A stretch of DNA of 57,879 bases, taken from assembly GCA_015665275.1 (NCBI GenBank), contig JADFAL010000081.1, positions 1 to 57,879 of the forward strand, read 5' to 3'. Positions 5,780 to 54,222 of the stretch are shown here, piece after piece; the stretch's first letter is position 1; each line of letters begins with the position of its first letter. This stretch comes from Flavobacteriales bacterium (GTDB lineage Bacteria; Bacteroidota; Bacteroidia; Flavobacteriales_D; Crocinitomicaceae). Under the pieces are notes generated by a model. It was not told the DNA's origin. It did no database searches and saw only the letters and a program-made list of their open reading frames with translations. Position numbers and translations under genes: made by a program.

Positions 5780-5783
5780 AGCT

Positions 5784-5791
5784 CAAAATTA
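5784..5791 (-). promoter_or_regulatory. Promoter -7 box of the pyrophosphatase gene
   Basis: A perfect TAATTTTG on the minus strand ends only 4 nt before the ATG. With the usual -7 geometry, transcription would start at or within a few bases of the start codon, giving a leaderless or nearly leaderless mRNA. The -33 region is weak (TTA, 21 nt upstream). Confidence 0.6.
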
Positions 5792-5945
5792 ATCATTCTT
5801 CCGACCTAGTTCTAAGGCTTTGATATCAGTACTTTACACAAAAACCTTGAAATTTACGCATCATTTCAGGTGAAAAGATTGATTTAATTCGAATAAGGTT
5901 TTATTTAGAGGCTATTATATATAATAATCAAAACACTATTTCACT

Positions 5946-6407
5946 ATGGAAGACTCAGTTCATGAATCGTTCGATCTTATTCTTGACAATGTAAAGCAAG
6001 GATCAACAGACCTTAAAGACCCAGTATGCTCATTTAGCTATACTTGGGATGAGAAGACAAATATGGGAATTGCTAACTTGCAAGCAATTAACGGAACTCC
6101 AGTAAACATTGTATTGCACCCACTTGGAATTGCAGGTCAGTTGGACTTCATGTCAGACATGGCGCCAGCAGGTTATCCAGTTGATGCATTGCCAGGAGAG
6201 GAAACGGAAATTATTACAATCGTAATTTACCGCGTAATCCTTGACGTTGAAGGAGATAATCGTTCCGCTGCAATTATGTTGGGTGAGGAAGGTGAGACAA
6301 TCATTACATCTAGCGGATTCGCTGATAGCAGTTCTTCAAAAGAATTGCCAGAGGTTAAATTCGAAACAGCAGAAGCTCCTGAAGGAGTTGAGCCACCAAC
6401 GGCATAA
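5946..6407 (+). CDS. Small acidic protein of unknown function
   Basis: A 153-residue, acidic protein with no signal peptide or membrane segment, so presumably cytoplasmic. I do not recognise the family. The middle (about 50-115) looks like a beta-rich fold and includes the segment ETEIITIVIYRVILDVEGDN. The C-terminal 35 residues are rich in Ser, Glu and Pro and probably disordered. It is monocistronic: the divergent pyrophosphatase gene lies upstream and a strong terminator follows 24 nt after the stop. Codon use looks like the neighbours. Confidence 0.8.
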   Translation: MEDSVHESFDLILDNVKQGSTDLKDPVCSFSYTWDEKTNMGIANLQAINGTPVNIVLHPLGIAGQLDFMSDMAPAGYPVDALPGEETEIITIVIYRVILDVEGDNRSAAIMLGEEGETIITSSGFADSSSSKELPEVKFETAEAPEGVEPPTA

Positions 6408-6431
6408 CATAACACTAAGAATAAAAAAGAA

Positions 6432-6459
6432 AGCCTGCTCGTTGGAGTGGGCTTTTTTT
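6432..6459 (+). terminator. Intrinsic terminator after the 5946-6407 gene
   Basis: AGCCTGCTC - GTTG - GAGTGGGCT forms a 9-bp stem with two G-U pairs and a 4-nt loop, followed by seven T. It ends the upstream transcript. Confidence 0.85.
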
Positions 6460-6473
6460 ATGACTTATATTTG
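6442..6473 (+). promoter_or_regulatory. Promoter of the interrupted lipoprotein gene
   Basis: A perfect -7 box TATATTTG (6466-6473) has TTG (6442-6444) 21 nt upstream, within the hairpin of the preceding terminator. The start codon of the next gene is 26 nt downstream of the box. Confidence 0.6.
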
Positions 6474-6499
6474 AACTCTCAAAATGTAAGCTGACTAAT

Positions 6500-7213
6500 A
6501 TGAAAGCACTTGTTTCTTTCGGACTCTTGATTTTGCTCTCGGGTTGTTATACTTCGAGTATGATGCAAACGGCCAAAACATTGGATGAAGGTGAGCGCGA
6601 ATTTACTTTTGGAGTGGGGCCTTACACATCATATGGTGATGTTTTGGTGGCTCCTGATTTCATGCTAAGATGAGGGGCTTCGGATAAATCGGATTTTGGT
6701 CTAGGTTATTCCCTGCAATTGAACGGGCACATTCGTGCTGATTGGAAGCGTGAATTATGGACGAATGCTGAAGAGACTCAATATTTAAGTTCTGGTGCAA
6801 TGTTTGAAATGTTCTTTCCGAACGATTTCGCAGGAGATCCAAATTATTTCGGTATCTGCCTTCCTGTTTATTATTCTTTCAATCATGATAAAAAGTGGGT
6901 TCCGTATTTCGGACAGCGATTTAGTTTGGGATTAGGAGGTCTGAATATTGTGCGTTATGCGGGAGTTCAAGAACCCTTGGAGCATAATATCAATCTATAT
7001 CATGACATGTACTATTCAGGTATTGCAGGCATTCGATTTGGGAAAAAGCGGGTGAAATACTTTTTGGAGGCGTCCTACAATGTAAAAATGGGGCACCGAT
7101 TCTTCAACTATCTCTATTCTTATGATAATGTTGAAGAGTGGCGTCTGCAAAGAGGTTATGACGGAAGTGCGGGTCTACAACTTACTCTTGGGATGAATCT
7201 TACAAGAAAGTAA
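6500..7213 (+). pseudogene. Outer-membrane-type lipoprotein gene interrupted by an in-frame TGA
   Basis: Reading from ATG 6500 gives a clear lipoprotein signal (MKALVSFGLLILLSGC, lipobox Cys at residue 16). After 57 residues the frame meets TGA at 6671-6673 and then stays open, in the same frame, to 7213, for a total of about 237 codons. The part beyond the stop is rich in aromatic and Gly residues in an alternating pattern (YYSGIAGIRFGKKRV, LQLTLGMNL near the end), like a beta-barrel protein. Both halves clearly belong to one gene. A Trp, Arg or Cys codon changed by one base is the simplest explanation, either a real nonsense mutation or a sequencing error. Family not recognised. Confidence 0.75.
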
Positions 7214-7222
7214 GGGTAAAGA

Positions 7223-7258
7223 CAAAAAAAAGCCCCGATCCTTAAGATGCAGGGCTTT
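7223..7258 (-). terminator. Intrinsic terminator of the GAPDH gene
   Basis: On the minus strand AAAGCCC and GGGCTTT form a stem around a 16-nt loop followed by a run of T. On the plus strand the hairpin lacks a T-tract, so it serves mainly the minus-strand GAPDH gene. Confidence 0.75.
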
Positions 7259-7281
7259 GAATTTCTAGTGAATTCTACCAA

Positions 7282-8733
7282 TTAATAATAAATCGCGCGA
7301 CGAACATTTGTAATGTATTTCGCCATTCGAATTACCTGCTTTGTATACCCGAATTCGTTATCGTACCAAGCATAGATTACCGCATTTTTACCGTCATTAG
7401 AAACGATAGTAGCGTTTGAATCGAATACCGAACAACAAGTGTTTCCGATAATATCGTTAGAAACCAATTCAGGATCCGTTGCGTAGTAAATTTGATTTAC
7501 CAATTCTCCATTCAATGCAGCATCGCGCATCACATTGTTCAATTCCTCAGCGCTGGTCTCATTTTCGAATTCCAGACTCATGATCGCTAAAGATCCGTTC
7601 GGAGTAGGAACGCGGACCGCATTTGCTGTCAATTTGTTTTCCAATGAAGGAATTACTTTCGTTACTGCTTTACCAGCTCCTGTGGAAGTAATTACCATAT
7701 TGATTGCTGCCGAACGACCACGACGTGGTTTCTTGTGCATGTTATCCAACAAGTTCTGATCATTGGTATATGCATGAACTGTTTCGATGTGTCCTTTCAC
7801 AACACCAAATTTGTCATTCACAACTTTTAAAACAGGGGAGATGGCGTTTGTAGTACAAGAAGCTGCAGAATAAACGCGCTCTTTTTTCAAATCCAGTGAA
7901 CCCTGATTGATTCCGTATACAATGTTGGGAATTTCTTTACCAGGAGCCGTCAACAATACACGAGACGTTCCTTTTGCTTTCAAGTGACGAGACAATGCCT
8001 CACGATCTGTGAAAACGCCTGTATTGTCAATTATAAGCGCGTTGTCGATACCATATTGCGTGTAATCGATATCTTCCGGGTTGTTCGCTGCAATCATTTG
8101 TACAGCGTGCCCATTGATGATCAATAGTTTCTTTTCGCCATCTACGGATACAGTTCCATCGAATGCTCCGTGAACGGAATCATTTTTCAATAATGCTGCA
8201 CGTTTTTCCAACTCAGTTTCCGAGTTTCCGCGCGTCACTATTGCACGTAGACGTAATTGTTGTCCTTTACCCGCTTGTTTGATCAATTCTCGCGCTGCTA
8301 ATCGTCCAATACGACCGAAACCGTACAAGATAACATCACGTGGTTTGAAAGGCTCAGCATTGGTCAGTTCAAAACCTTTTAGTTTGTCTTTTAAGAACTC
8401 GCCTTTGGAGCTATATCCTGACTGTTCGTTAAGCCACTCGCTTGCTAATTTCCCGATGTCCAATTTCGCTGGAGCAAGATCAAGGTGCAATAATGCTTCT
8501 GCAAGTTCAGCACTTGTGAAAATATCTACAGGCTTGTTTACCACGCGCTTTGAATAGACGTGTAGTTTAAGCATTTTTGCTATAGTAACGTCTGTAAGGT
8601 GATTTCTGAAAAACACCAATTCAATTCCTTTGTCGTAGAGTAATTCTCCAACTACGCTTGAAAGTTTTACCGCCGCACGTTCTTGTTTGATGTGCGATTT
8701 CAGTTCCTGTTCGTAACCTAGGGCAGTTTCCAT
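7282..8733 (-). CDS. Glyceraldehyde-3-phosphate dehydrogenase, long form with N-terminal extension
   Basis: A 483-residue protein; ordinary GAPDH has about 335. Residues 1-130 are an extra helical N-terminal region. The Rossmann fold starts near 134 with GFGRIGR, the catalytic cysteine is C293 in SAASCTTNA, and the C-terminus has the typical WYDNEFGYTKQV. Long GAPDHs of this kind are common in Bacteroidota and some gammaproteobacteria, often beside a standard GAPDH. The position after the second beta-strand, where NAD-specific enzymes carry an Asp, reads TRG here, so NADP use and a gluconeogenic role are possible; that is an inference. Monocistronic, with its own terminator. Confidence 0.93.
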   Translation of the reverse strand: METALGYEQELKSHIKQERAAVKLSSVVGELLYDKGIELVFFRNHLTDVTIAKMLKLHVYSKRVVNKPVDIFTSAELAEALLHLDLAPAKLDIGKLASEWLNEQSGYSSKGEFLKDKLKGFELTNAEPFKPRDVILYGFGRIGRLAARELIKQAGKGQQLRLRAIVTRGNSETELEKRAALLKNDSVHGAFDGTVSVDGEKKLLIINGHAVQMIAANNPEDIDYTQYGIDNALIIDNTGVFTDREALSRHLKAKGTSRVLLTAPGKEIPNIVYGINQGSLDLKKERVYSAASCTTNAISPVLKVVNDKFGVVKGHIETVHAYTNDQNLLDNMHKKPRRGRSAAINMVITSTGAGKAVTKVIPSLENKLTANAVRVPTPNGSLAIMSLEFENETSAEELNNVMRDAALNGELVNQIYYATDPELVSNDIIGNTCCSVFDSNATIVSNDGKNAVIYAWYDNEFGYTKQVIRMAKYITNVRRAIYY

Positions 8734-8772
8734 TTGTTAAATTATAGGGTTGAAAATAAAAAGGGGTATTAT

Positions 8773-8805
8773 AAAAAAAAGCTGCCCAGAAATCAGGGCA
8801 GCTTT
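8773..8805 (-). terminator. Intrinsic terminator of the sigma factor gene
   Basis: AAAGCTGCCC and GGGCAGCTTT form a perfect 10-bp stem with an 8-nt loop, followed on the minus strand by a run of T. It lies 4 nt after the sigma factor stop codon. Confidence 0.9.
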
Positions 8806-8809
8806 GATA

Positions 8810-9676
8810 TTATCCTAAATAGGCTTTCAAAAGTTTGTTTCGCGACGTATGTCGGAGTCGACGGATGGCCTTCTCTTTTATCTGACGCACGCGCTCACGC
8901 GTGAGATTGAATTTGGCTCCGATTTCCTCGAGAGTCAAACCGTGATTCATTCCAATTCCGAAGAATAGGCGAATGATTTCACGCTCCTTGTCAGTTAACG
9001 TGCTCAATGAACGTTCGATTTCTTTCTGCAACGACTCTGTCATTAAAGAGTGGTCAGCTTTCGGAGAATCGTTATTGGCCATTACATCCATCAATGTACC
9101 TCCATCCTCAGAAGTGGATAGGGGCGCATCCATAGAGACGTGACGTCCAGATACGTTCAAACTTTCTTTGATTTTGTCCTCAGGAACTTCTAATGCTTCC
9201 GCCAACTCTTCTGCAGAGGGTGGTCGCTCAAATTCCTGCTCAAGACGTGAAAACGCCTTGTTGATTTTGTTTAAAGATCCTACCTGGTTCAATGGTAAGC
9301 GCACAATACGTGCTTGCTCAGCTAGTGCTTGCAAGATTGATTGACGAATCCACCAAACAGCATACGAGATAAATTTGAATCCACGAGTTTCATCAAATTT
9401 CTGCGCAGCCTTGATAAGGCCTAGATTTCCTTCGTTAATTAAATCGGGTAACGTTAACCCTTGGTTTTGGTACTGTTTTGCAACAGAAACAACGAATCGA
9501 AGGTTAGCTCTCGTGAGTTTTTCAAGGGCCTGTTGGTCTCCTTGCTTAATTTTACGAGCTAATTCAACTTCTTGTTCCGCCGTAATTAATTCTTCTTTAC
9601 CGATGTCCTGTAGGTACTTGTCTAATGACTGACTCTCCCTGTTGGTAATCGATTTGGTGATTTTTAGTTGTCTCAT
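8810..9676 (-). CDS. rpoD: Primary sigma factor RpoD/SigA (sigma-70), short Bacteroidota type
   Basis: A 288-residue housekeeping sigma factor. Region 1.2 is at about 17-48; region 2 contains [16 protein letters not shown] and the -10 recognition helix [15 protein letters not shown]; region 3 follows; region 4 ends with the helix-turn-helix [29 protein letters not shown]. Region 1.1 and the large non-conserved insert of the E. coli factor are absent, as in the Bacteroides primary sigma factor. This type recognises the TTTG / TAnnTTTG promoters found throughout the window. Monocistronic. Confidence 0.95.
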
Positions 9677-9715
9677 TCTAATTACGTGCTCTAACTTTTA
9701 AGACTTTAGCGATTG

Positions 9716-9748
9716 CAAAGATACGACGATTCTACCTTGGTTTCCAAA
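9716..9748 (-). promoter_or_regulatory. Promoter of the sigma factor gene
   Basis: On the minus strand TTTG (9745-9748), a 21-nt spacer and TATCTTTG (9716-9723): both boxes match the Bacteroidota consensus fully. The 5' leader would be about 35 nt. Confidence 0.78.
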
Positions 9749-9808
9749 TAAATGGTGATATTTTGTTAACTTTCCCTTTACTCAAAAATCATGCCTGACT
9801 CTCTAGTG

Positions 9809-11299
9809 TCAGAGGCCGAATCCTACGTAGTCTTTCCTTCCGCTTTCTGTCATTACTTCCAACAGGACACCTCCCGAGGAATTATTTAATTTCGATGTGA
9901 GTTGATCGACTGTGGAAATAACCTCATTGTTCATTTTCGTTACGATCATTCCTTCTTTCAGACCGATGGACTTAAGCTTCCCAGCATTTAATGAGGTAAT
10001 CTTTACACCATTCGAGATGTTCAACTCCTTCTTTTCTTTACTCGATAACTCCATAAATGTTGCACCCAAAGCCACATTTTTATCGATTTCTTCCTTAGAG
10101 ACCAATTTTGTGTCTCCATCTGCGTTGCGCAACACTATTTCTTTCACTTCGATTCCTCCTTTCGAATTTCGAATCGTTACAGAAACTTTATCTCCCGGAC
10201 GACGACGACCTACTTCTTCCTGCAACGACGCCACTGAGTTTACTTCTTTAGCACCAATTTTCAGGATTACATCACCTTCTTTAAGGCCTGCTTTGCCAGC
10301 CCCGCCATTTTGATTAACTCCGGCAACATAAACGCCATTCAGATCTTTCAGTTTCTGATCTTCTTTTAATTCCTGTGTAATATCAGCAATTTGAACTCCT
10401 AGATAACCGCGTTGAACTACACCGTAATCCATTAAGTCGGCCATTACCTTTTGAACCAAATTTACCGGTACCGCAAAAGAGTAACCTGCATAGCTTCCTG
10501 TTCTTGAGGCAATAGCAGTGTTGATTCCTACCAATTCTCCGTTCACATTTACCAATGCTCCGCCTGAGTTGCCCGGGTTTACCGCTGCATCTGTTTGGAT
10601 AAAGGATTCGATAGGAACAATATCTTGGCGGTTTCCGTCATTCAATAAATTAATGTTCCGCGCTTTGGCCGAAACAATTCCAGCAGTTACCGTTGACGTA
10701 AGATTGAATGGATTTCCTACAGCCAATACCCACTCTCCAATACGAAGGTCATCACTGTTGCCAAGAGGGAGCGCTTGTAGACCACCTTCTTGAATTTTCA
10801 AAACAGCAATATCCGTCGATGGATCTGTTCCGATAACCTTGGCGGTGTACTTGCGGTTGTCGTTTAAGGTAACTTCAACTTCGCTGGCGTCTTCAATTAC
10901 GTGATTGTTCGTTACGATATATCCGTCCGAAGCTACAATTACCCCAGATCCTGCACCTTGACCATACTGTTTGAACTCTTGACCACCAGCACCTGGGCCA
11001 TGGAAAAATTCAGAGAAAATATCCCGTTGAAACGAGGTTTTTACGACTTTAGTTGTGATGTGCACAACAGAGTTGACAGAACTTTCTGAAGCTCCAACGA
11101 AATTTTCTGTTGATGCTAAAGGTCCTGAGTTAAAAACAGTTTTATAGGCAAAGCGAGAATCGCGTTGACCAACAACTGTGTCCGATTGTGGAGATGTTAC
11201 TTCCTCTGGAGAAGAACTCATTGCAAAGAATAAAACCAAAGGCAACATTCCGCCCGCCAGTCCCAATCCGAAGTGTTTTAAATTTTGATTCATAGTCAA
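9809..11299 (-). CDS. degP: HtrA/DegP-type periplasmic serine protease
   Basis: A 496-residue protein with an N-terminal hydrophobic segment (about 8-28: signal peptide or anchor), then a trypsin-like domain with H133 (TNNHVIED), D163 (STDIAVLKI) and S245 (NPGNSGGALV). PDZ1 spans about 280-390. A second PDZ, about 400-496, begins around FMELSSKEKKELN. The domain order matches DegP/DegQ. It degrades or refolds misfolded envelope proteins. The second Met (residue 3) is an equally good start. It is divergent from dapF with a 167-nt gap. Confidence 0.93.
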   Translation of the reverse strand: MTMNQNLKHFGLGLAGGMLPLVLFFAMSSSPEEVTSPQSDTVVGQRDSRFAYKTVFNSGPLASTENFVGASESSVNSVVHITTKVVKTSFQRDIFSEFFHGPGAGGQEFKQYGQGAGSGVIVASDGYIVTNNHVIEDASEVEVTLNDNRKYTAKVIGTDPSTDIAVLKIQEGGLQALPLGNSDDLRIGEWVLAVGNPFNLTSTVTAGIVSAKARNINLLNDGNRQDIVPIESFIQTDAAVNPGNSGGALVNVNGELVGINTAIASRTGSYAGYSFAVPVNLVQKVMADLMDYGVVQRGYLGVQIADITQELKEDQKLKDLNGVYVAGVNQNGGAGKAGLKEGDVILKIGAKEVNSVASLQEEVGRRRPGDKVSVTIRNSKGGIEVKEIVLRNADGDTKLVSKEEIDKNVALGATFMELSSKEKKELNISNGVKITSLNAGKLKSIGLKEGMIVTKMNNEVISTVDQLTSKLNNSSGGVLLEVMTESGRKDYVGFGL

Positions 11300-11451
11300 T
11301 TTAATTTTCTGTGATTTAAAATTCCTAATGCAATTAGCGTTTTAATAATATGCTAAGGCAACAACAATAATAACGCCAATCATCCCGATGTCATACGCTT
11401 TTCGCTGTTAAAGATTGTTAAGCATCTGTAGGTGGTTTTAACGATTAAAAT

Positions 11452-11459
11452 TACCTTTG
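11452..11459 (+). promoter_or_regulatory. Promoter -7 box of dapF
   Basis: Perfect TACCTTTG, ending 7 nt before the dapF ATG, which implies a very short 5' leader (a few nt). No convincing -33 box is seen. Confidence 0.55.
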
Positions 11460-11466
11460 TTTTCGC

Positions 11467-12258
11467 ATGAATATTTCATTCTCCAAATATCAGGGAACAG
11501 GCAACGATTTCATTATGCTGGACAATTTGTCAGGTAATTATGATGCATTGACTTTGGATCAAATCCGATTTCTGTGTGATCGTAAATTAGGGGTTGGGGC
11601 CGACGGCTTGATTAAAATCTCAAAAGATGAAAATTTCGATTTTAATGTGGAGTATTATAATTCGGATGGATCACAGAGTTTTTGTGGGAACGGAGCGCGT
11701 TGCAGTGTGGCTTTCGCGAAAACGTTAGGTGAACTAGTTGATGCTACGAAGTTCAATGCTATTGATGGTGTTCACGAAGCTAAAATTACGGTTGACGGAC
11801 GTGTTCATTTGGAAATGCTTCCTGTTTCAAATGTCGAGCGTCTGAGAGACGAGGAGAATCAAGAAGTGTTTGTCATGGACACCGGGTCTCCACATTATGT
11901 GAAATTTGTAGACGCTTCCAACGCGCCTGACATTGTGGATTTTGGTAAGAGAATTCGATATTCGGACCGTTTCAAAGAAGAAGGAATTAATGTGAATACT
12001 GTTGTAGAATTAGGCCCAAATACGATTCATGTAGCAACGTATGAGCGTGGAGTGGAAGATGAAACCTTGTCTTGCGGAACAGGAGTTACGGCGTGCGCTT
12101 TGGCGTATATGCTTACAAATAGTTCGAATAATGAGGTAAGCGTCTCTACGAAAGGAGGTAAGCTTTCCGTGAAAGCAATAGCTTCGGACAAAGGTTTTCA
12201 GAATATTTGGTTGATTGGACCAGCAAAAAAAGTGTTTGATGGAAGTATTGAAGTCTGA
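11467..12258 (+). CDS. dapF: DapF, diaminopimelate epimerase
   Basis: A 263-residue PLP-independent epimerase that converts LL-DAP to meso-DAP for lysine and peptidoglycan synthesis. The two catalytic cysteines are C73 (FCGNGARC) and C203 (LSCGTGVTAC), and the N-terminal KYQGTGNDFI motif is typical. The next gene overlaps its end by 20 nt, so dapF heads a unit that includes the 12239 gene, the acetyltransferase and mltG, all with overlapping ends. Confidence 0.96.
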   Translation: MNISFSKYQGTGNDFIMLDNLSGNYDALTLDQIRFLCDRKLGVGADGLIKISKDENFDFNVEYYNSDGSQSFCGNGARCSVAFAKTLGELVDATKFNAIDGVHEAKITVDGRVHLEMLPVSNVERLRDEENQEVFVMDTGSPHYVKFVDASNAPDIVDFGKRIRYSDRFKEEGINVNTVVELGPNTIHVATYERGVEDETLSCGTGVTACALAYMLTNSSNNEVSVSTKGGKLSVKAIASDKGFQNIWLIGPAKKVFDGSIEV

Positions 12259-14323: not shown

Positions 14324-14334
14324 CAAACGAAAAC

Positions 14335-15863: not shown

Positions 15864-15897
15864 AAGCTATTTTTAATTATTGATATAAAATCGATGT

Positions 15898-19043: not shown

Positions 19044-19074
19044 TTGGAAAATAATACCATGGTATCTATTTTTG
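19044..19074 (+). promoter_or_regulatory. marR-osmC promoter with palindromic operator in the spacer
   Basis: TTG (19044-19046), a 20-nt spacer and a perfect -7 box TATTTTTG (19067-19074). Inside the spacer is the 12-bp perfect palindrome ATACCATGGTAT (19054-19065). A palindrome between the promoter boxes of a MarR gene is the expected place for autorepression. The ATG follows the -7 box by only 4 nt, so the mRNA should be leaderless. Confidence 0.7.
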
Positions 19075-25804: not shown

Positions 25805-25904
25805 GAATGTAAAGATAAAATTTCGACTGAATAGTAGGCTAGGAGTGCGGAGGGAAGTTCCTAAAAATGGTTAATTGATTTTTGTGATGATTTATGCTGA
25901 AAGC

Positions 25905-34276: not shown

Positions 34277-34280
34277 ATTC

Positions 34281-34306
34281 TAAAAATACGGAATTGTCTA
34301 ATTTTG
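34281..34306. promoter_or_regulatory. Back-to-back promoter boxes of the divergent pair 34276/34310
   Basis: The 33-nt gap holds a minus-strand TATTTTTA (34281-34288, 7/8 match) serving the alcohol dehydrogenase and a plus-strand TAATTTTG (34299-34306, perfect) serving the lipoprotein gene. Each box ends 3-4 nt before its start codon. Their upstream elements must overlap the opposite gene's start. Confidence 0.5.
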
Positions 34307-34309
34307 AGT

Positions 34310-40842: not shown

Positions 40843-40871
40843 GTTAATGAAACTATGATTATCTTGAGCGC

Positions 40872-41851: not shown

Positions 41852-41885
41852 CCGAGGGAATGATTCATTTTTCGTAATTTGATCT

Positions 41886-43884: not shown

Positions 43885-43902
43885 ATGTTTTATCTTTACC
43901 AC

Positions 43903-45323: not shown

Positions 45324-45516
45324 GATTCAATATTGTCCTAAGACGCTCTGCTATGACCGTAACTAATAACTGAAAAATTCATAGTTCATAACTTTAAATC
45401 TCCGATTTCGAGAATTCGCAAGTTCAACCTTTCGGAGTCTCAGTCATCGTTATTCATTATTATCGACTTATCCATCGGCTATCTCGCCCGCCTGGCTCGG
45501 CCTCTGTCTTCAAAAG

Positions 45517-48500
45517 CTATTGCTTTTTCTTCTTCTCGTTTTTGTCCTTTCCAATCGAGAATTTATAACTGTCGTAATCGCCAGTGATTTTCACGTTGAC
45601 GTATTTGGTCTTTTCATCCCCATACTGAATTTCGTCAAGTCCATCATTGGGTTCGTCGTCGTCCTTTTTCTTCCCGAACAATCTGGATTTAGCCGTACTA
45701 CTCACCATCTTCCATGGGATTCTGATATAATACTCCATCTTACCTTCAAGTGACTGATTTCCAGATATTTGCATATGTCCAAGGGAGGAGTTTACCGTCA
45801 TGTTTGGAATGGTAATAACTCCATCAACGATATCGACATTGTTGTTTAGTGTATCGAATAGAACGCTGCTCAAATTCTTGTCTTTGAAATAATCAGACAT
45901 ATATTGAAGCATTGCGTAATTCTCCAATCGTCCTTTTACAACATCCAAATCCATGTGGATTTCAGAATCGTCAATTTTCGGGATCAAGTCTGGGTGTACG
46001 TGAATTTTACCGCTAATGGTTCCGGTGAATTTACCGTGGAGATTTTCCGACACAATGTAGTCCTGTCCGAAGTTTTCAAATCGAAGAAGCAGCTGATCTA
46101 AATCCACGTTTTTCGCTTTAATTGTCGGATTGAAGTAAATCATTTTAGGATCTGATCCATTGAAATAACCGGAAACATCAAAATGTCCTCCAGCCATATT
46201 CATATTGAGATTGTCAACATGGATATAGTGATTTGGGGTGGTGCGCAATTCACCTTTAAAGTTGGTGATTCTGTACGTGTGATAATCCAATAAGCCGATA
46301 TCCAGATGATACGTCATGTCGGTGAATGGAAGTTCGTAAATATTGAATCCTTCTTCGTGTTCTACGTGCACGCCTGTGTTTCCTGGTTTTACCGGACCTG
46401 GATTGTAATTACTCAATTCATCAATATCCAGCCTTGGTGCTACAATGGAGAAATGATTGTCTCGCTTCCTCACAGAAGGATCATCGCCTAAGTAATAGTG
46501 TAGGGTAGAGGTGAAGTTCGAATGCCCCATTTTTCCATGAAAATCTTCCACCACTAAATGATCATTTTCGTAATGAACCCTTCCTTGGAAATCTCTTAAT
46601 CGAAGCGGATGTACTTTCATTTTTGCTTCCAGTTTGTCTAAGGTCAAGTCGATAGATTTCAACTCGTCTTCGTAATGCAGATACGTGAACCCGTGAATAT
46701 GCAAATCGTCGAACTCCTCGTGGCGGTAATCCTCCGGAACAAAGTTCTCTCCCTTGTACGAAAAGAGGGACTCCAGAAGCAAACGATCAGAAGCCAGATC
46801 GAATTCAATTTTCGAATCTCCGCCAGAATGCTCATCCATCCACTTTTCGTAATGTTCTAGCATACCGGAGAAGTGAAAGTCGCTTTTGTCAATCATTCCT
46901 GAGAAGTCAACAATACGAAGATCTTCCTCCTCTACGAAGATGTCTGCATGAAAGTCGTGCAGTGTATGCGGATAGTGTTTCAATTTTCCATAAAGGTTTT
47001 CAATGAAAAACTCGCCTTTCGGTAAGTATTTTGATTCTGTGAACGATCGAGCGGATGCCTTGAAATCAAAATCCATGGAAAGATCTGAAATTTGTTCATC
47101 CACAGCATTTTCATCACCTCCTGTAAGCTCGTAAATGTCTAAAAACGTACTGGCAATAGTTAATCGCGTATCTACCTCTTTATTAGAATGATGAATAATT
47201 GCGGGCAAATCTTCAATGATTCCTGTGATGTGTACATCTGATTTCCCTGCTTTCAAGTCACACTTCAAAATGGCCGCTTCATGACCCTTAACTTTCGCAT
47301 TCAAGTCGAAGTCCTTGATGGCAACAGGCAGATCATCGTGTTCAAATCGAACATTGTTTAGGTTGACATTCAATTTATAGTTCTGATTGAGTTCGGATAA
47401 GGTTTTTTCTGGATTCTCAAGATCAATTACATCGTGATAGTTCAAATTGACTTTAGCTGTTCCTTTTAGATGGTGCAATTCCTTCATGTTAAGGAACTTG
47501 GAGAAGAAACTCAAATTCAAATCAGCGTTTGCATCGAGAAGAATGTTTGGTGCATGTAAATTTTGCATTTGGATGTTTCCACCGAAACTTCCAGCCCCAG
47601 GTTTTCCTTTGATATCAGTCAACTTCACAAAGATATGATCGATGTCGTGGGCGTCTCCGTTGGTAAAATATCCGTTGAAGGCAATCCCTTTAAGAGTTTT
47701 ACCGTTTTTCTTGTTCTTGAAATATCCGTTTTTACAACCAAACGAAGCTCTCACAGCAGGATTATGGCCGTTAATCGATCTTCCCTTTATAGTGGTTTTA
47801 AGGTAGATGTTCCCTTTGTTCTCGTAGGTCTGCATCATCTTCATGGTTTCTTCAGGAAGGACAGCAATGAATAAATCGAAATTGTTCTTATTCATACCAA
47901 AATCGAGATCGAGCAACATGTCTTTAAGGAAATCTACCGATCCTTTCATCTTAAAATCAGCACCTTCTAACTTAACCGTGGTTGGCTCGATGGTCATGAT
48001 ATCCACACCTTTCCTAAAGTCTACTTTGGTAGAGAGGTCTACATGCTTGTGCTTGAAGAAAGTTGTATCTCCATCTTGAATGATATTCATGATGAATTTG
48101 GCATCTAACGTGGCATACACATGATCCTTAGCCGTTCTAAACTGAGAACTGGCCTCACTCACGAATGCTTCGACTTTCAAGCCATTCGCTTCATTTAGTT
48201 TGGTGATATCAATGTCCTCCAAATCAATTTTTTGCAAATCCAGATGGAATTCTTCCTCGGCACTTTCAATCTCTTTCTCTGGCGATAGGGCATTGGCGAT
48301 ATTAAAACTACCGTCCTCGTGCTGGATCAAATCCACATGTCCTCCCTTGAGTTTGATCTTTTTCACCTCCATGTCCCCAGAGACAATAGTCCACATATCA
48401 AATCCAATGTATGCGTCTTTGACATTTACCAAAGGTTTTGATGATTTGTCCTTTGTTTCGTAGACCTTAAAGCCTTCCAAATCGATAGAGATGTAAGGGA

Positions 48501-48714
48501 AATTTTCAAAAAGTGAAATGTGCGAACCTTTGATTTCCGCAGAACCTTTGAAGTCCTTGTTCATATCGGCAAGCATTTCTTGCACGATCTCATCTTGCTT
48601 GACATATACGACTGTGACACCAATAGCAAAGAGTAGGATTGGTGATACAAGCAGGGTAATGATGAATCGTTTCCAGAACCTTCTCGTTCGGAACCAATTT
48701 TTAAAGAACTTCAT
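45517..48714 (-). CDS. Giant AsmA-like / TamB-like envelope protein
   Basis: 1065 residues. A basic N-terminus and a transmembrane helix (about 17-37: RFIITLLVSPILLFAIGVTVVYV), then a very long periplasmic region. It opens with the AsmA N-terminal domain (ISLFENFPYISIDLEGFKV, MEVKKIKLKGGHVDLIQHEDGSFNI) and ends with the AsmA C-terminal repeat (GVITIPNMTVNSSLGHMQISGNQSLEGKMEYYIRIP). Many strands of alternating polar and hydrophobic residues fit a beta-groove of the AsmA/TamB/YhdP lipid-transport family. The length is typical of the Bacteroidota branch. A -7-like TATTTTGA lies 18 nt upstream of the ATG. Confidence 0.9.
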   Translation of the reverse strand: MKFFKNWFRTRRFWKRFIITLLVSPILLFAIGVTVVYVKQDEIVQEMLADMNKDFKGSAEIKGSHISLFENFPYISIDLEGFKVYETKDKSSKPLVNVKDAYIGFDMWTIVSGDMEVKKIKLKGGHVDLIQHEDGSFNIANALSPEKEIESAEEEFHLDLQKIDLEDIDITKLNEANGLKVEAFVSEASSQFRTAKDHVYATLDAKFIMNIIQDGDTTFFKHKHVDLSTKVDFRKGVDIMTIEPTTVKLEGADFKMKGSVDFLKDMLLDLDFGMNKNNFDLFIAVLPEETMKMMQTYENKGNIYLKTTIKGRSINGHNPAVRASFGCKNGYFKNKKNGKTLKGIAFNGYFTNGDAHDIDHIFVKLTDIKGKPGAGSFGGNIQMQNLHAPNILLDANADLNLSFFSKFLNMKELHHLKGTAKVNLNYHDVIDLENPEKTLSELNQNYKLNVNLNNVRFEHDDLPVAIKDFDLNAKVKGHEAAILKCDLKAGKSDVHITGIIEDLPAIIHHSNKEVDTRLTIASTFLDIYELTGGDENAVDEQISDLSMDFDFKASARSFTESKYLPKGEFFIENLYGKLKHYPHTLHDFHADIFVEEEDLRIVDFSGMIDKSDFHFSGMLEHYEKWMDEHSGGDSKIEFDLASDRLLLESLFSYKGENFVPEDYRHEEFDDLHIHGFTYLHYEDELKSIDLTLDKLEAKMKVHPLRLRDFQGRVHYENDHLVVEDFHGKMGHSNFTSTLHYYLGDDPSVRKRDNHFSIVAPRLDIDELSNYNPGPVKPGNTGVHVEHEEGFNIYELPFTDMTYHLDIGLLDYHTYRITNFKGELRTTPNHYIHVDNLNMNMAGGHFDVSGYFNGSDPKMIYFNPTIKAKNVDLDQLLLRFENFGQDYIVSENLHGKFTGTISGKIHVHPDLIPKIDDSEIHMDLDVVKGRLENYAMLQYMSDYFKDKNLSSVLFDTLNNNVDIVDGVITIPNMTVNSSLGHMQISGNQSLEGKMEYYIRIPWKMVSSTAKSRLFGKKKDDDEPNDGLDEIQYGDEKTKYVNVKITGDYDSYKFSIGKDKNEKKKKQ

Positions 48715-48799
48715 AAACGTTTATTAGACCGTTCAAAATACAACGATTTCAATTCACCACAAAGCGAATGCCAAAAAGAGTTTTGAACTATTCTTACAC

Positions 48800-49162
48800 C
48801 TAGTTATCGTTGGCGTCGAATAATCCCCGTACTTCTGGTTTTTGCAGTTCAATCACGGTAAAGATACACAATAGAATTCCCAGAATACCAGTAATACAAT
48901 TAATGGCTGCAGCAACTATTATGAACGTTCGGCCTCGGCGCTGTTGGAATCTAGAACTTGCCATAAGTGCCGGGATGCCTGTTCCCAAGGCGATAATTAA
49001 CATGACAACACCGAAAATCACAAACAAATTCGCTGGGTTAAAAGGAATTTCCTCTCCACTTCTGTAGGCCGCTTCTTCAAAGGCGGAGCTAGCAAAAGAA
49101 CCTATGGCAATGTAAATGAGTCCTATTAAGGAGATCAATAAATCCAAGATGCCCTTAATCAA
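48800..49162 (-). CDS. Small integral membrane protein of unknown function
   Basis: 120 residues with three transmembrane helices at about 5-24, 47-66 and 82-105. The first is followed by a Glu-rich loop (SSAFEEAAYRSGEEIPFNPANL) and the ends are polar. The family is not recognised. It is followed by 85 nt before the end of the AsmA gene's start region. Confidence 0.78.
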   Translation of the reverse strand: MIKGILDLLISLIGLIYIAIGSFASSAFEEAAYRSGEEIPFNPANLFVIFGVVMLIIALGTGIPALMASSRFQQRRGRTFIIVAAAINCITGILGILLCIFTVIELQKPEVRGLFDANDN

Positions 49163-49221
49163 GAATAGGATTTTATAGGTGTTGAGATTTTTCTCTCCGG
49201 GATGCTGTCCGTTTATAGTCT

Positions 49222-49509
49222 TTAGTTTTCTTCAATAGTTACTCCTTTCCAAAATGCTACGTATCCTTTAATCGATTTTGCTAGTTCTTTCGTTTCTGGA
49301 TAAAACCAAGCGGCATCTTGATTTGTTTTGCCATCCACTTCAATGGAGTAGTAGGAGGCGGTTCCTTTCCAAGGGCAGACGGTATGTGTTTCGCTTTCCC
49401 TGAAGAGGTCAATTTTCAAGGTTTCAGGCGGAAAGTAATGATTCCCTTCAATGATGATGGTTTTTTCACTTTCTGCGATAACCTGTCCGTTCCACGTAGC
49501 TTTTTTCAT
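49222..49509 (-). CDS. DUF427 domain protein
   Basis: 95 residues from ATG 49509 (the frame opens further upstream only through TTG). The family pattern is KATWNGQVIAES, EGNHYFPPE, CPWKGTASYYSI and AAWFYPETKE. DUF427 is a small beta-rich protein of unknown function, common in bacteria and fungi. It lies just upstream of the tmRNA on the opposite strand. Confidence 0.9.
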   Translation of the reverse strand: MKKATWNGQVIAESEKTIIIEGNHYFPPETLKIDLFRESETHTVCPWKGTASYYSIEVDGKTNQDAAWFYPETKELAKSIKGYVAFWKGVTIEEN

Positions 49510-49586
49510 TTGGATCAATTGAGTACTTAAAAATAAAGAAAAGGGCGAAACTTAGCGGATTTACGGGTGAAAACTAATTTTCTACC

Positions 49587-49594
49587 TATCTTTG
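49587..49594 (+). promoter_or_regulatory. Promoter -7 box of ssrA
   Basis: A perfect TATCTTTG ends 18 nt before the mature tmRNA 5' end; a few leading nucleotides would be removed by RNase P. No strong -33 box is seen. Confidence 0.6.
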
Positions 49595-49612
49595 TTCTCT
49601 GTTCTTTTTTTC

Positions 49613-50014
49613 GGGGCCGTATTGGATTTGACAGCGATAGCAGTTGTCGGGTGCAAGCATGTCGAGCCATGTGATGAGTCTCGTTAATCTCTGATCACAA
49701 ACCATAATTGACAATACGTCATACCAACTTGCTGCCTAATTTACGGAATGTAAATTAAGCTTTATCTAGTGGAATAATAGTACACAGACGAGTTCCTTCT
49801 CCCTCAATTCCGCCTGATAATTAAGGGACTCAGAAGGACCAATTCTTTCAGGATAGCGATTGTGATACTCCTAAGCAGTCGTGAAACTCAGGAGATAAGC
49901 GTATTACTTGGGTGTCTTTGTCCGATGATACGTCGAAAACCGAATCGAAGAATAAGCATGTAGAAAGCCAGGTAATTCGTCGTTTGGACGAGGGTTCGAT
50001 CCCCTCCGGCTCCA
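49613..50014 (+). ncRNA. ssrA: tmRNA (ssrA)
   Basis: 402 nt. The 5' GGGGCCG pairs with 3' CGGCTCC to form the acceptor stem with the diagnostic G3-U pair recognised by alanyl-tRNA synthetase, followed by the discriminator A. CCA is not encoded and must be added. The T-arm GAGGG-TTCGATC-CCCTC is present near the 3' end. The tag reading frame is GAC at 49710 to TAA at 49737-49739, encoding DNTSYQLAA after the tRNA-borne Ala; the U-A at positions -5/-4 of the resume codon is conserved. SmpB, its partner, is encoded 4.3 kb downstream. Confidence 0.95.
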
Positions 50015-50015
50015 C

Positions 50016-50067
50016 AAAGCAGTGTGAAGATTCAGAGCGAGAGTGATGAAATTCACACTGCTTTTTT
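50016..50067 (+). terminator. Terminator of ssrA
   Basis: AAAGCAGTGTGAA (50016-50028) pairs with TTCACACTGC and the following T's (50052-50067) in a 13-bp stem with six T at the end. A strong intrinsic terminator directly after the tmRNA. Confidence 0.88.
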
Positions 50068-50411
50068 CTTTGCTCAAACTGACCATTTAATTTTAATACA
50101 CCCCCAATTATATTCATGGATCTATTTAAATCAAAAAACAATGTTCCTCATTTCGTCTACATACTAAGATGATCCCTGGGTAACTTCTGTGTTGGTTGTG
50201 TCAATGATTCCAGGAGAGGATTGAACAAACATGTTTCTGGAAAAGTCAAATCGACTAACTACCGATAGTCCATCTCTAGTTTCTTTAAAGAGATTTCCAT
50301 TTTGAAAATAGTTTCCGTCAAATTGATGAAATCCACGTTGCTAAAAAAATAAAATTCACCTGTTAATCAATGTGTTAAGGTGCATGGCATTGAATTCGTG
50401 TTAGGGTACGC
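50068..50411. other. 344-nt gap without a confident gene
   Basis: No gene is supported here. On the minus strand one frame stays open for 58 codons (50164-50340) and reads like protein (NGNLFKETRDGLSVVSRFDF) but has no start and is preceded by a stop, so it could be a gene remnant or chance. Another open run partly overlaps it. No promoter box or terminator stands out besides the ssrA terminator at the left edge. Confidence 0.5.
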
Positions 50412-50855
50412 ATGCATACATCTCTATATATTCTCGACGACGATCTTTATTACGGAAGATGTTTGAAAAAGCAATTTGAATCTACTGTTGATGAAGTGAA
50501 ACACTTTAAGACGGAACGAAACTTCCGAAAAGCACTGCAATCTCCTCCGAACATTATCATTTTGGATTACAATCTCGAACAATCTACAGGGTTGGATGTC
50601 ATTGATGAAATACAAGAACTTGGATTGAGTTCAGAGCTTTTACTAGTTTCATCACAAGATAATGTCAACGTTGTATTGAACGCCTACAAAAAAGTGGTGC
50701 TGGGCTACTTTGAAAAAAGCACCGCCACTTTTTGTGATGTTCAGAAATGCATTGAATGGATGCTATTCATGAGCAACGATTTTCATTATCCGTTGAATCG
50801 TAACCAATTCCGAGAAATGTGGCTTAAGAGCAGGAAGAAATATGGTTTCGCTTGA
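50412..50855 (+). CDS. Stand-alone response regulator (receiver-domain) protein
   Basis: 147 residues, a receiver domain with no DNA-binding output. The acidic pocket is D9-D11, the phosphoacceptor D52 (IILDYNLEQ), the switch Ser is S80 (LLVSSQDN) and K102 is the conserved Lys (YFEKST). A short basic C-terminal segment (FREMWLKSRKKYGFA) follows. It would be phosphorylated by a histidine kinase not in the window and relay by protein contact. Monocistronic with a terminator. Confidence 0.9.
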   Translation: MHTSLYILDDDLYYGRCLKKQFESTVDEVKHFKTERNFRKALQSPPNIIILDYNLEQSTGLDVIDEIQELGLSSELLLVSSQDNVNVVLNAYKKVVLGYFEKSTATFCDVQKCIEWMLFMSNDFHYPLNRNQFREMWLKSRKKYGFA

Positions 50856-50875
50856 TTTTTTAAGTCATTAAATAG

Positions 50876-50908
50876 AAAAGGGAGTTTGGTTCAACCAAGC
50901 TCCCTTTT
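50876..50908. terminator. Bidirectional terminator between the receiver gene and the protease gene
   Basis: AAAAGGGAG and CTCCCTTTT form the outer 9-bp stem, extended inward by TTGG/CCAA around a TTCA loop. A-rich on the left and T-rich on the right, so it can stop transcripts from both convergent genes. Confidence 0.8.
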
Positions 50909-50928
50909 CAGTATGAATCAATGCATGA

Positions 50929-52125
50929 TTAATTTTTCATACAATAGTAAGTAGTAGTCCAAGTACCACCTCCATGATAAGCTCCAGGATAAGAATTGTA
51001 GTTAATTCGCGTAGTTCCGTAAATCGAATCTTGGATGGTTAATTTATTCGAACTATCTATTCCGGTAATTGCCATGAAATGAGCTCCTCCGCCGTTCCAA
51101 GCTACTCTTGTACAAACAGAGTTCCCATTGTTTAATTGTGCACGAACAGTATTCGGAGGGCACGTTCCATCTGCAGTGTGATTGAAAGATCTTGTATATG
51201 TTAAGGCTTTGTTCAGATATCCATAAACATTACAAGACCCAGCATTTGCACAACAATTTTGCCCAGGCAAACATCCTGTAGCTGTGTCGCATTGGGTCCA
51301 ATTCCCTGTGCCGTAGAACAATCCAACGGAAGTGCCACAAGCAGCCCAACACCAATTCGCTTCTAGCTGATGTTGCATCGTGAATGAAAGTTGAACAGTT
51401 GAAGCTCCTCCTGCCGGTGCTCCTCCTGCCGCTTTGAGTAAAGAAGAAACATTATTTACTGCAAGAAGTGACGGAATTCCTGTTTTACCACTTATTGATT
51501 GTCCAAATGGTGCAGCAATACTTCCCGAACCAGCCGAATCGCCCGGATTCTTCTTGATTTGATCATGCATGTTGTTAAACGCATTTGTAATGTGTTCGCC
51601 AAGTTGATCTAAAGAAATTGGTTTTAAATGCTCTAGTTGAGAAAAGGAATGTGGCGGGATTGGAAGCACAACATCTTTGGTGGTGTCGTTCTCTGTGTGA
51701 GATAACCATAATCCTGTAAAGTGAACAGACGGAATTACAATCAGTCGTGGTTCGAAAGAGTCATCTGTGTCTTTAGAAAATGCCTCTGCACCATGCAACC
51801 CTTCAAGCACCCCTTCTACCAGTGTGCCATAGGACTTCGCGTGTACGCCTTCCTGAGATGAATCAGCAAGATAGGAGGCAGAAATAACTTCGTCTTTGTC
51901 GAAAACGAGATATTGCCAGTGACCTGGAGTAAACGCTTCATGAATGGGCTTTTTATAGTCATCAGCGTTGATAGTCCATAATTGAATAGCGTTACCAACG
52001 CTAATGTTGTCGCTTTCGCGGGCTTCTAATAATCCTCTTTTTGATTGGATTTCGTGCTGAGCCATATGCTGGGCAACTAGATCCGTTCCATTGGACGGAG
52101 CATTTTTCGAAAAAATAATCGACAT
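50929..52125 (-). CDS. Papain-like cysteine protease (C70/AvrRpt2-like) without signal peptide
   Basis: 398 residues. The C-terminal ~155 hold the protease: QHQLEANWCWAACG with nucleophile C259 followed by Trp, H349 in GGAHFMAITGI and D366 in IQDSIYG, plus paired cysteines (GQNCCANAGSCN) that could form disulfides. The motif matches the bacterial papain-like family that includes AvrRpt2. Residues 1-240 are a separate mixed helix/strand domain of unknown family joined by an Ala/Gly-rich stretch (KAAGGAPAGGAS). No signal peptide is present, so either it acts in the cytosol or another export route is used. No immunity partner is visible. Confidence 0.85.
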   Translation of the reverse strand: MSIIFSKNAPSNGTDLVAQHMAQHEIQSKRGLLEARESDNISVGNAIQLWTINADDYKKPIHEAFTPGHWQYLVFDKDEVISASYLADSSQEGVHAKSYGTLVEGVLEGLHGAEAFSKDTDDSFEPRLIVIPSVHFTGLWLSHTENDTTKDVVLPIPPHSFSQLEHLKPISLDQLGEHITNAFNNMHDQIKKNPGDSAGSGSIAAPFGQSISGKTGIPSLLAVNNVSSLLKAAGGAPAGGASTVQLSFTMQHQLEANWCWAACGTSVGLFYGTGNWTQCDTATGCLPGQNCCANAGSCNVYGYLNKALTYTRSFNHTADGTCPPNTVRAQLNNGNSVCTRVAWNGGGAHFMAITGIDSSNKLTIQDSIYGTTRINYNSYPGAYHGGGTWTTTYYCMKN

Positions 52126-52297
52126 AGTTTACATTTTGAGTGAATAGTGGATGGAAATTTTCAGTGGAATTTCCAAGTATGTAAATATGTCGAAATAAAT
52201 GAATAAAAAGAATACGCACAAATACCTGAAATATCAGTTAGTAAACTGCACTAGGCACGCATGTTACTTGCAATTATTAAGAGGGAAGGGGACTAAG

Positions 52298-52357
52298 ACG
52301 TTGAGTGGCGTAACCCGAATTTTCATTCAATGCCCTAAAAAGTTACGCCACCAACGT
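52298..52357. repeat. Long inverted repeat in an intergenic gap
   Basis: ACGTTG-A-GTGGCGTAAC (52298-52314) pairs with GTTACGCCAC-CAACGT (52342-52357): 16 bp with one bulged A, around a 27-nt loop, in the 290-nt gap between the protease and RRM genes. No T-run follows on either strand, so it is not an intrinsic terminator. It could be a small mobile-element remnant, a protein-binding site or an RNA structure. No gene is supported in the rest of the gap. Confidence 0.7.
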
Positions 52358-52415
52358 ACAGGAAGTATAGGTACTTATAAAAGTCCTACGCATATAATCC
52401 CATCCGTTGGATTGG

Positions 52416-53012
52416 TTACATTTCGTCGTCGTCTTCCGTCCAGCCACGACGTTTTTGCTTGAGAAGTTCTAATTCCCAATCATCGTCGTCTTCGAACTCT
52501 ACACGGGGCTTTTTACCACTTTTCTTATATGCAGACATCTTGAATTCGCGATTATCTGCTGCTTTCTCTCCAGATTTTTTCTTTTTGCCTTTTCCTCGTT
52601 TGGTAGTCTTGTCTCCAGATTGACTGGAAGAAGAATCATCATCTTTTGGGGCAATAGGTGCTCTGAAATCGTCTGTTTTGGGAGGTCGAGAATCGGAGCT
52701 GTCTTGTCGAGGTGGTCGAGAATCACGTCCTGCAGGCGGGCCTGAAGAGCGTGGTTTATTACCACTACTGCGGTCTTCTGCCAACTTAACTACCATGTTC
52801 CGGCCGTTAATTTCATAATCGTCTAGGGAACGAATAGCTTCTTGTGCTTCTTCAGCTGTTCCCATTTCCACAAAGGCAAAACCTCTAGGCTTACCCGTTT
52901 CGCGATCCTTGGCAATGTGGCACTTAACTACTGTTCCGAATTCTTCGAATAGGGATTTTAACGCTTCGTCGCTTACACCAAAGTCGAGTTTCGCTACAAA
53001 GATATTGGTCAT
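52416..53012 (-). CDS. RNA-binding protein with one RRM domain
   Basis: 198 residues. The RRM is at 3-80: RNP2 IFVAKLDF near residue 4 and RNP1 KPRGFAFVEM near 42. The remaining ~115 residues are low complexity (Arg, Asp, Ser, Pro, Lys) like the tails of plant-type glycine-rich or bacterial cold-inducible RRM proteins; the end is acidic (EFEDDDDWELELL then KRRGWTEDDDEM). It probably binds mRNA. Related RRM proteins are multi-copy in Bacteroidota and cyanobacteria. Confidence 0.92.
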   Translation of the reverse strand: MTNIFVAKLDFGVSDEALKSLFEEFGTVVKCHIAKDRETGKPRGFAFVEMGTAEEAQEAIRSLDDYEINGRNMVVKLAEDRSSGNKPRSSGPPAGRDSRPPRQDSSDSRPPKTDDFRAPIAPKDDDSSSSQSGDKTTKRGKGKKKKSGEKAADNREFKMSAYKKSGKKPRVEFEDDDDWELELLKQKRRGWTEDDDEM

Positions 53013-53082
53013 ATCAGATTGAGAGAGAATGTATTAATAATAGCAATATACTTAAAAAATAGTATGCCCCAAATCTAGGTAC

Positions 53083-53113
53083 AAAAAAAAGAACCGAGCC
53101 ACCCCGGTTCTTT
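53083..53113 (-). terminator. Intrinsic terminator of mscL
   Basis: On the minus strand AAAGAACCG and CGGTTCTTT form a 9-bp stem with an 8-nt loop, followed by seven to eight T. It lies 20 nt past the mscL stop and also insulates the RRM gene. Confidence 0.85.
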
Positions 53114-53133
53114 ATTTTTATGTTTCGAAACTG

Positions 53134-53502
53134 TTATTTCTTTAGTAAGTCGCGAATTTCAGTCAACAACTCTTGGTCCATAGTTGGGCCAGCTGGTGCT
53201 GCAGGCTCTTCTTCCTTCTTCTTTTTCATTTTGTTTATTGATCGTACAATCAGGAAAATTACAAACGCAATAATCAAGAAATTTACAATTGCCTGTATGA
53301 ACAATCCGTACATAACGTCTACACCATTAATATTTTTAGATAGGCTAGCGAAAGACTCTCCAATAAAGGATCCGATCACCGGCATAATAATATCGTTGAC
53401 TAAAGACTTAACAATTAGTCCGAAAGCTCCCGCTAAAATTACAGCAACTGCTAGGTCAATTACGTTTCCTCTTGAGATGAACTCTTTAAATTCTTTAAAC
53501 AT
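53134..53502 (-). CDS. mscL: MscL, large-conductance mechanosensitive channel
   Basis: 122 residues, a normal MscL length. N-terminal amphipathic [24 protein letters not shown] leads into TM1; TM2 is around 65-86 ([21 protein letters not shown]); the C-terminal helix carries a charged bundle (KKKEEE) and a coiled-coil end ([12 protein letters not shown]). It opens under membrane tension to release solutes on osmotic downshift. Confidence 0.95.
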
Positions 53503-53604
53503 TTCGTATTAGTTTTTGATTGATTAAGTGCCAAAATAACATTAGTGATAACAGAATAATAGAATAGCATTGCAATGTTATTCACATTCCGTTATGGAAA
53601 CGAA

Positions 53605-54210
53605 TTAAATTTGAAAGGGCTGACGATGTAACAACGATCGGCTCAAAGTCACTTCATCCGCGTATTGTAGCTCAGATCCAACGGAAACGCCACGCGACAA
53701 CGTTGAAACTGTAATTTCATAATCACGGATCTTTTTGTAGATGTAATAATTGGTCGTGTCTCCCTCCATAGTTGGACTCAACGCGAAAATTACTTCATGA
53801 ATGTCTCCTGTTGAAACGCGATCTATCAGTGATTGGATATTCAAATCGGAAGGTCCAACGCCATCCATTGGAGAAATTATACCACCAAGAACATGATACC
53901 TTCCTTTGTAGGATTCTGTGGCTTCAATCGCAAGAATGTCACGAATATCTTCCACAACACAAATAGTCGTTCCGTCTCTTCTCGCATCCAAACAAATAGA
54001 GCATTCTTCCTGATCAGCAATATTTCCGCAGCTTTTGCATCGGTGTACGTTTGCTTTCATTTCCGTAAAAGCATCCGAAAAGGACTGAACATCTTCATCG
54101 GAACGTTGCAATAGATTCAGAACCAGCCGTAATGCAGTTCTGCGACCGATTCCTGGAAGAGACGCAATTTGGTCAACAGCAGCCTCGATGTGTTTGGAAG
54201 GAACTTTCAC
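53605..54210 (-). CDS. recR: RecR, recombination mediator protein
   Basis: 201 residues. Helix-hairpin-helix at the start (ASLPGIGRRTALRLVLNLL), a four-Cys zinc finger (CKSCGNIADQEECSIC), then a Toprim domain with the acidic VVEDIRD and the LGGIISPMDGVGP motif. RecR works with RecF/RecO to load RecA at gaps. The start is GTG at 54208-54210, only 4 nt after a perfect TACTTTTG promoter box (54215-54222), so the mRNA should be leaderless. Divergent from smpB. Confidence 0.95.
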   Translation of the reverse strand: MKVPSKHIEAAVDQIASLPGIGRRTALRLVLNLLQRSDEDVQSFSDAFTEMKANVHRCKSCGNIADQEECSICLDARRDGTTICVVEDIRDILAIEATESYKGRYHVLGGIISPMDGVGPSDLNIQSLIDRVSTGDIHEVIFALSPTMEGDTTNYYIYKKIRDYEITVSTLSRGVSVGSELQYADEVTLSRSLLHRQPFQI

Positions 54211-54214
54211 AATT

Positions 54215-54222
54215 CAAAAGTA
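54215..54222 (-). promoter_or_regulatory. Promoter -7 box of recR
   Basis: Perfect TACTTTTG on the minus strand, 4 nt from the GTG start codon. Confidence 0.6.

Follow-up and report, generated by a model that had tools for sequence, protein, structure and literature searches.

Promoter boxes 4–5 nt before start codons predict leaderless mRNAs in a Crocinitomicaceae genome and across Bacteroidia

Mycobacteria and Streptomyces use Shine-Dalgarno leaders as well as leaderless mRNAs. Their leaderless mRNAs have AUG and GUG starts, like those predicted here, but arise from an unrelated promoter in hosts of high G+C content (PMC9031893). Closer in layout is the −10 motif that adjoins open reading frames in Deinococcus, where an element a few base pairs before the reading frame yields a leaderless mRNA, the spacing matters, and the motif corrects start annotations, GTG included (PMC12340547). 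The promoters mapped in Flavobacterium johnsoniae carry the box TAHHTTTG (revised from TAnnTTTG), and transcription starts 4 or 5 nucleotides (nt) past it (PMC6847099). Here we describe boxes of this type just before start codons, most of these at a distance of 4–5 nt, in a 57,879-nt contig (JADFAL010000081.1; hereafter, the window) of a Flavobacteriales bacterium of the family Crocinitomicaceae, and their spacing in its genome and in the class Bacteroidia.

In this phylum, leaderless mRNAs have been described before, as a minority, and so the kind is not new. An earlier comparative study suggested leaderless and/or S1-dependent initiation (PMC5397173), gene-finder work described AT-rich non-canonical ribosome sites in the group (PMC9581028), and Bacteroidota ribosomes are reported to keep their anti-Shine-Dalgarno tail hidden (PMC9976891). 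In a large survey, leaderless genes were sought by Pribnow-like boxes alone, which turned up in 1 of 37 Bacteroidetes/Chlorobi genomes; a possible underestimate was noted there, and high hidden percentages were judged unlikely (PMC3160421). Our literature search, which covered the broader literature only among the matches listed, found no paper on leaderless recR in Flavobacterium or on leaderless start sites in Flavobacteriales.

In the window, 4 of 56 called genes have a perfect TAnnTTTG box 3–5 nt before an in-frame ATG or GTG, compared with a mean of 0.23 and a maximum of 3 in 500 shufflings of the 60-nt upstream regions. The box itself is not over-represented (47 found, 54 expected); its position is. 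We extended the count to 858 kb, 24% of the genome (assembly of 3.64 Mb in 115 contigs, 96% complete), by adding 40 stretches of 20 kb to the window. A simple coding-potential caller gave 726 genes in this sample, 444 of them with at least 50 nt upstream. Because core starts were estimated crudely and any in-frame ATG or GTG up to 90 nt inside the coding core was allowed as a start, the out-of-frame control is important here. Perfect boxes lie upstream of genes in 148 cases. At gaps of 4–5 nt they precede 24 in-frame starts (18 ATG, 12 at gap 4 and 6 at gap 5; 6 GTG, 5 and 1) versus 3 out of frame (3 ATG, 0 GTG; binomial P about 3e-9 against one third). A trough follows, with 2 in-frame ATG at gaps 9–14, and then a leadered peak of 45 at 15–24 nt. 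The remaining 29 arrangements of the box letters give 0–3 in-frame ATG at gaps 4–5. In the whole genome, TAHHTTTG at gap 4–5 was counted 153 times, versus 76 in a reversed control, and the looser pattern TANNTTTG (gap 3–5, ATG) shows little excess, with 237 versus 195. The original prediction, made from the window, had held its narrow spacing to be hard to ascribe to chance, and the sharp in-frame peak in a quarter of the genome bears this out.

We propose that the close boxes are −7 elements of housekeeping promoters of the sigma-ABfr type. Because the start sites published for F. johnsoniae lie 4–5 nt past the box (PMC6847099), which is the close-box spacing found here, the start codon would fall on +1. 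RNA polymerase should thus begin at the first base of the start codon, and the resulting leaderless mRNAs would be translated from a 5′-terminal AUG or GUG, probably by 70S-type initiation as in other bacteria. We give this reading of the close-box genes a probability of roughly 0.87. The likeness to the sigma-ABfr promoters of F. johnsoniae (PMC6847099) and F. psychrophilum (PMC9723704) extends to the box, to free positions without G and to leaderless transcripts as a minority.

Close boxes sit at the first genes of transcription units. In-frame starts at gap 4–5 occur in 19 of 184 genes with a divergent neighbour, in 5 of 260 co-directional genes with at least 50 nt upstream and in 2 of 213 operon-internal genes (19/184 versus 7/473, P about 1e-6). 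G is absent from both free positions of the close boxes (0/24 and 0/24), compared with 22% and 20% in all 644 boxes; leadered boxes have it in 8/58 and 3/58. Only two of the 18 one-letter variants are clearly enriched at gap 4–5, TAnnTTTA (14 versus 1 out of frame) and TAnnTTCG (10 versus 1), and these also top the in-frame counts at 15–24 nt (28 versus 22 and 14 versus 3 out of frame). In the −33 region, TTG is found at 33% of the 24 close-gap and 28% of the 58 leadered boxes, TTTG at 8% and 12%; the −33 element is faint in F. johnsoniae too (PMC6847099). The bases 7–9 nt past the box are A-rich in the genome's own leadered promoters (53–63% of 49).

In the window, seven of the nine genes named in the original prediction have true boxes (Table 1). 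Letter-by-letter reading agrees with its four perfect boxes (gap 4 three times, gap 3 once). Of its five one-letter-off boxes, those of batA, the alcohol dehydrogenase gene and porP keep 5/6 fixed letters and stand, and those claimed for the 40872 and 41886 genes do not, the best 8-mers at gaps 2–7 reaching 4/6. Transcription at or next to the start codon, as it had predicted, is supported by the gap histogram, by conservation of the gap and, by analogy, by the F. johnsoniae start sites, except for the 34310 gene, with its gap of 3, and for these two genes without a box.

Table 1. Boxes of the window, with the leadered smpB control and the two claimed boxes that were not counted (gene products by Pfam where a match was found)
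Position (strand)	Box	Match	Gap (nt)	Start	Gene
5784..5791 (−)	TAATTTTG	perfect	4	ATG 5779	inorganic pyrophosphatase (PF00719)
19067..19074 (+)	TATTTTTG	perfect	4	ATG 19079	MarR family
25810..25817 (−)	TATCTTTA	one letter off	5	ATG 25804	BatA
34281..34288 (−)	TATTTTTA	one letter off	4	ATG 34276	iron-containing alcohol dehydrogenase
34299..34306 (+)	TAATTTTG	perfect	3	ATG 34310	no Pfam match
43891..43898 (+)	TATCTTTA	one letter off	4	GTG 43903	PorP/SprF
54215..54222 (−)	TACTTTTG	perfect	4	GTG 54210	RecR
54258..54265 (+)	TACTTTTG		18	ATG 54284	smpB, divergent from recR; leadered control
40860..40867 (+)	TATCTTGA	4/6 fixed letters; not counted		40872	no Pfam match
41875..41882 (+)	TAATTTGA	4/6 fixed letters; not counted		41886	DUF2459

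The spacing is best followed at recR. The closest RecR match belongs to the metagenome-assembled genome (MAG) Fluviicola sp. XM-24bin1 (92% identity), and the next are MAGs titled mostly Fluviicola, Crocinitomicaceae or Flavobacteriales. Among the best 80 of 421 recR loci, 51 have a box at gap 4–5 (34 perfect and 17 of the TTTA/TTCG type; 30 GTG and 21 ATG starts); the nearest box lies at 15–30 nt in 12, beyond 30 nt in 7 and at 6–14 nt in 1, and 9 have no box. The best 26 loci (64–92% identity) all show gap 4–5, 22 of them with GTG, and their spacer letters differ. In 14 loci titled Bacteroidales, Bacteroides, Prevotella(ceae), Xylanibacter or Paludibacteraceae, a hand count gave gap 4–5 in none, a nearest box at 17–51 nt in 10 and no box in 4. 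Where both recR and smpB were present (33 loci), recR had gaps of 4 (29), 5 (2), 16 (1) and 17 (1), and smpB gaps of 15–20 (24), 4 (3), 6 (1), 7 (2) and 11 (1), or no box (2). In two relatives (L068 and L070) the states are swapped, with recR leadered at gaps 16 and 17 and smpB at gap 4.

In 90 genomes drawn evenly across Bacteroidia, our own included, recR has gap 4–5 in 41 (34 perfect and 7 variant boxes; 32 ATG and 9 GTG). The others show gaps of 6–7 in 8, 8–14 in 7, 15–30 in 8 and more than 30 in 6; 15 have no box, and in 5 no start was found. Among the best 30 class-wide matches of each gene, gap 4–5 was found for recR in 21 (hand count), holB in 11, smpB in 8 and recF in 5, so that recR is prominent among these genes without being the only one. 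By a Pfam scan of 23 of the 24 close-box genes (L018:19366-19779 was left out), the set includes recR along with genes for a RecF-like, a MutS-domain and a HolB-like (DNA polymerase III delta-subunit-type) protein. This suggested a leaderless RecFOR/repair group, an idea that fails on the class-wide recF and holB counts. Within the literature searched, the deep conservation at recR looks new, as does the GTG excess described below.

In relatives, the gap length is conserved although the other upstream DNA has diverged. Among 30 batA loci within the family, taken as the best matches of 40 genomes including our own, 25 have gap 4–5 (21 perfect, 4 one-letter-off) and 5 lack it. Both same-genus relatives examined have a perfect box at gap 4 before marR, and one same-genus relative has the identical box and gap before the alcohol dehydrogenase gene. 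For the 34310 gene, a same-genus relative has TACTTTTA, one letter off, at gap 3. The pyrophosphatase gene was not used as evidence: most of its family matches are distant, and the upstream region could not be aligned through the start.

Only 33 nt (34277–34309) separate the start codons of the divergent alcohol dehydrogenase and 34310 genes, and this stretch holds both −7 boxes, a layout kept in a same-genus relative. With so short a gap, the upstream part of each promoter would lie in or at the opposite gene. Both 40872 and 41886 are preceded by TAnnTTG, in which TA and TTG are one base closer together, reminiscent of the SM5 promoter of F. psychrophilum. An SM5-type box (TAnnTTGY, PMC9723704) was tried for these two genes and rejected, as it shows no excess at gaps 3–5 in the 858-kb sample.

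Across the phylum, TAHHTTTG with ATG was counted at gaps 4–5, 10–11 and 19–20 in 158 genomes. The 39 Bacteroidia genomes, our own included, give sums of 5471, 3461 and 4868. Gap 4–5 exceeds 10–11 in 39/39, with z above 2 in 34. Our genome (153, 57 and 93) resembles its two nearest sampled relatives (163, 59, 78 and 148, 55, 79) and ranks sixth of the 39 by the ratio of 4–5 to 10–11; genomes of other families (G072, G033, G115) reach 3.6–4.5. In 19 genomes behind named loci, the ratio to the reversed-pattern control, computed by hand, is 1.9–2.5 in eight Fluviicola, Crocinitomicaceae, Lishizhenia and close MAGs. It is 2.8 in Xylanibacter muris, 2.1 in Bacteroidales SW299, 1.8 in Aequorivita and Galbibacter, 1.6 in Bacteroides sp. 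224, 1.3 in Cryomorpha, 1.0–1.3 in three Paenimyroides, 1.0 in Marinifilum and 0.9 in Myroides. Since ratios are high in other families as well, strong close-box use is not confined to Crocinitomicaceae.

Outside the class, a G+C-richer family of 8 genomes (f22, e.g. G144 and G101; loci L216-L229) has 337, 72 and 94 at the three spacings, and small samples from two f22 genomes gave 5 and 3 in-frame starts at gap 4–5 and 0 out of frame. Six further outside families lack the leadered peak. Their ratios for gap 4–5 are 1.02 (f14), 1.13 (f21), 1.14 (f16), 1.18 (f32), 1.25 (f19) and 1.39 (f10); f14 is a clean negative, and f21, f32, f19 and f10 retain a small unexplained excess (z 2.4–3.4).

Instead of a promoter, the close box could be a signal for translation: a T-rich, unstructured site for the ribosome. 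Bacteroidota do without Shine-Dalgarno sequences, and the bases just upstream of the start tune initiation (PMC6847099); in our sample, none of the 58 leadered starts has a Shine-Dalgarno-like tetramer. Missing Shine-Dalgarno sequences, which the original prediction had counted in favour of leaderless mRNAs, are therefore no argument, because leadered genes lack them too. A 16S rRNA pattern used to check the anti-Shine-Dalgarno end had no match in the incomplete assembly. However, a translation signal should also occur inside operons, where close boxes are few compared with genes behind divergent neighbours. The avoidance of G at the free positions, as in a promoter element, and the use of the same variants at leadered distances also speak against it, and we regard it as very unlikely. 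We see slightly more room, though still little, for wrongly assigned starts, that is, leadered mRNAs translated from a downstream codon. The lenient start choice may have misplaced some of the 24 starts, and a porP relative uses the next codon. Against this, the next in-frame ATG of RecR is codon 51, from which the protein would lose its helix-hairpin-helix domain (residues 8–50); BatA fits its Pfam model from residue 1, and the alignments of the best 42 recR loci begin at residue 1.

Coincidence, an AT-rich box in AT-rich upstream DNA combined with the picking of fitting starts, would suit the ordinary frequency of the box in the window, the two false cases among nine, the small excess of the loose genome pattern and the slight gap 4–5 excess (1.13–1.39) in outside families without a leadered peak. 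It is contradicted for the set by the in-frame to out-of-frame contrast, the letter-permutation controls, the flat ratio in f14 and the gaps kept with unconserved spacer letters, and is scarcely credible there; individual genes, the 34310 gene for example, may still be cases of it. Several observations do weigh against transcription of the close-box genes as leaderless mRNAs. No purine peak appears 4–5 nt after the box in 49 of the genome's own leadered promoters (0.45 and 0.53). Five of the 24 close-box genes carry a further box upstream and could additionally make a leadered mRNA. Class-wide, the trough is not empty for recR, given the gaps of 6–7 and 8–14 nt listed above. Finally, published shares are low: 5.5% leaderless in F. 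psychrophilum (PMC9723704), about 3.7% with leaders shorter than 10 nt in B. thetaiotaomicron and 13% with leaders of 10 nt or less in F. johnsoniae (PMC6847099).

With the TTTA and TTCG variants included, starts at gap 4–5 number 48 in the 444 genes with an upstream gap, about one in ten before background, compared with about one third of genes served by TANNNT in Deinococcus (PMC12340547). At 15–45 nt there are 144 in-frame ATG and GTG, on a higher background, which puts the leaderless share of box-linked starts at perhaps 15–25%; this estimate cannot be compared directly with the mapped values. Most Flavobacterium transcripts are leadered, whereas here gap 4–5 outnumbers both other spacings counted genome-wide; the methods differ, and these shares are likewise not directly comparable. 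GTG is in excess among the close starts (10 GTG and 38 ATG at gap 4–5 versus 4 and 85 at 15–24; Fisher P = 0.006). Leaderless GUG is poorly used in E. coli and better in some actinobacteria (PMC9031893). The original prediction had also used the spacing to decide start codons. It does point to the GTG of recR; the GTG of porP is not settled, because a same-genus relative, with a perfect box, has ATG one codon later at gap 6.

Taken together, we lean towards the view that particular Bacteroidia genes have long been under selection for leaderless expression. In this picture, recR would be leaderless, often with GUG, across much of the class, orthologues would switch between leaderless (gap 4–5) and leadered (gap 15 or more) states, as at recR and smpB, and roughly one in ten genes with an upstream gap would be leaderless in Crocinitomicaceae. 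The phylum's own box reveals a signal in all 39 Bacteroidia genomes, unlike the Pribnow-based survey (PMC3160421). Its spacing also points to start codons, and the conserved genes predicted to be leaderless, some with GUG, offer a direct test bed for start-codon choice in Bacteroidota.

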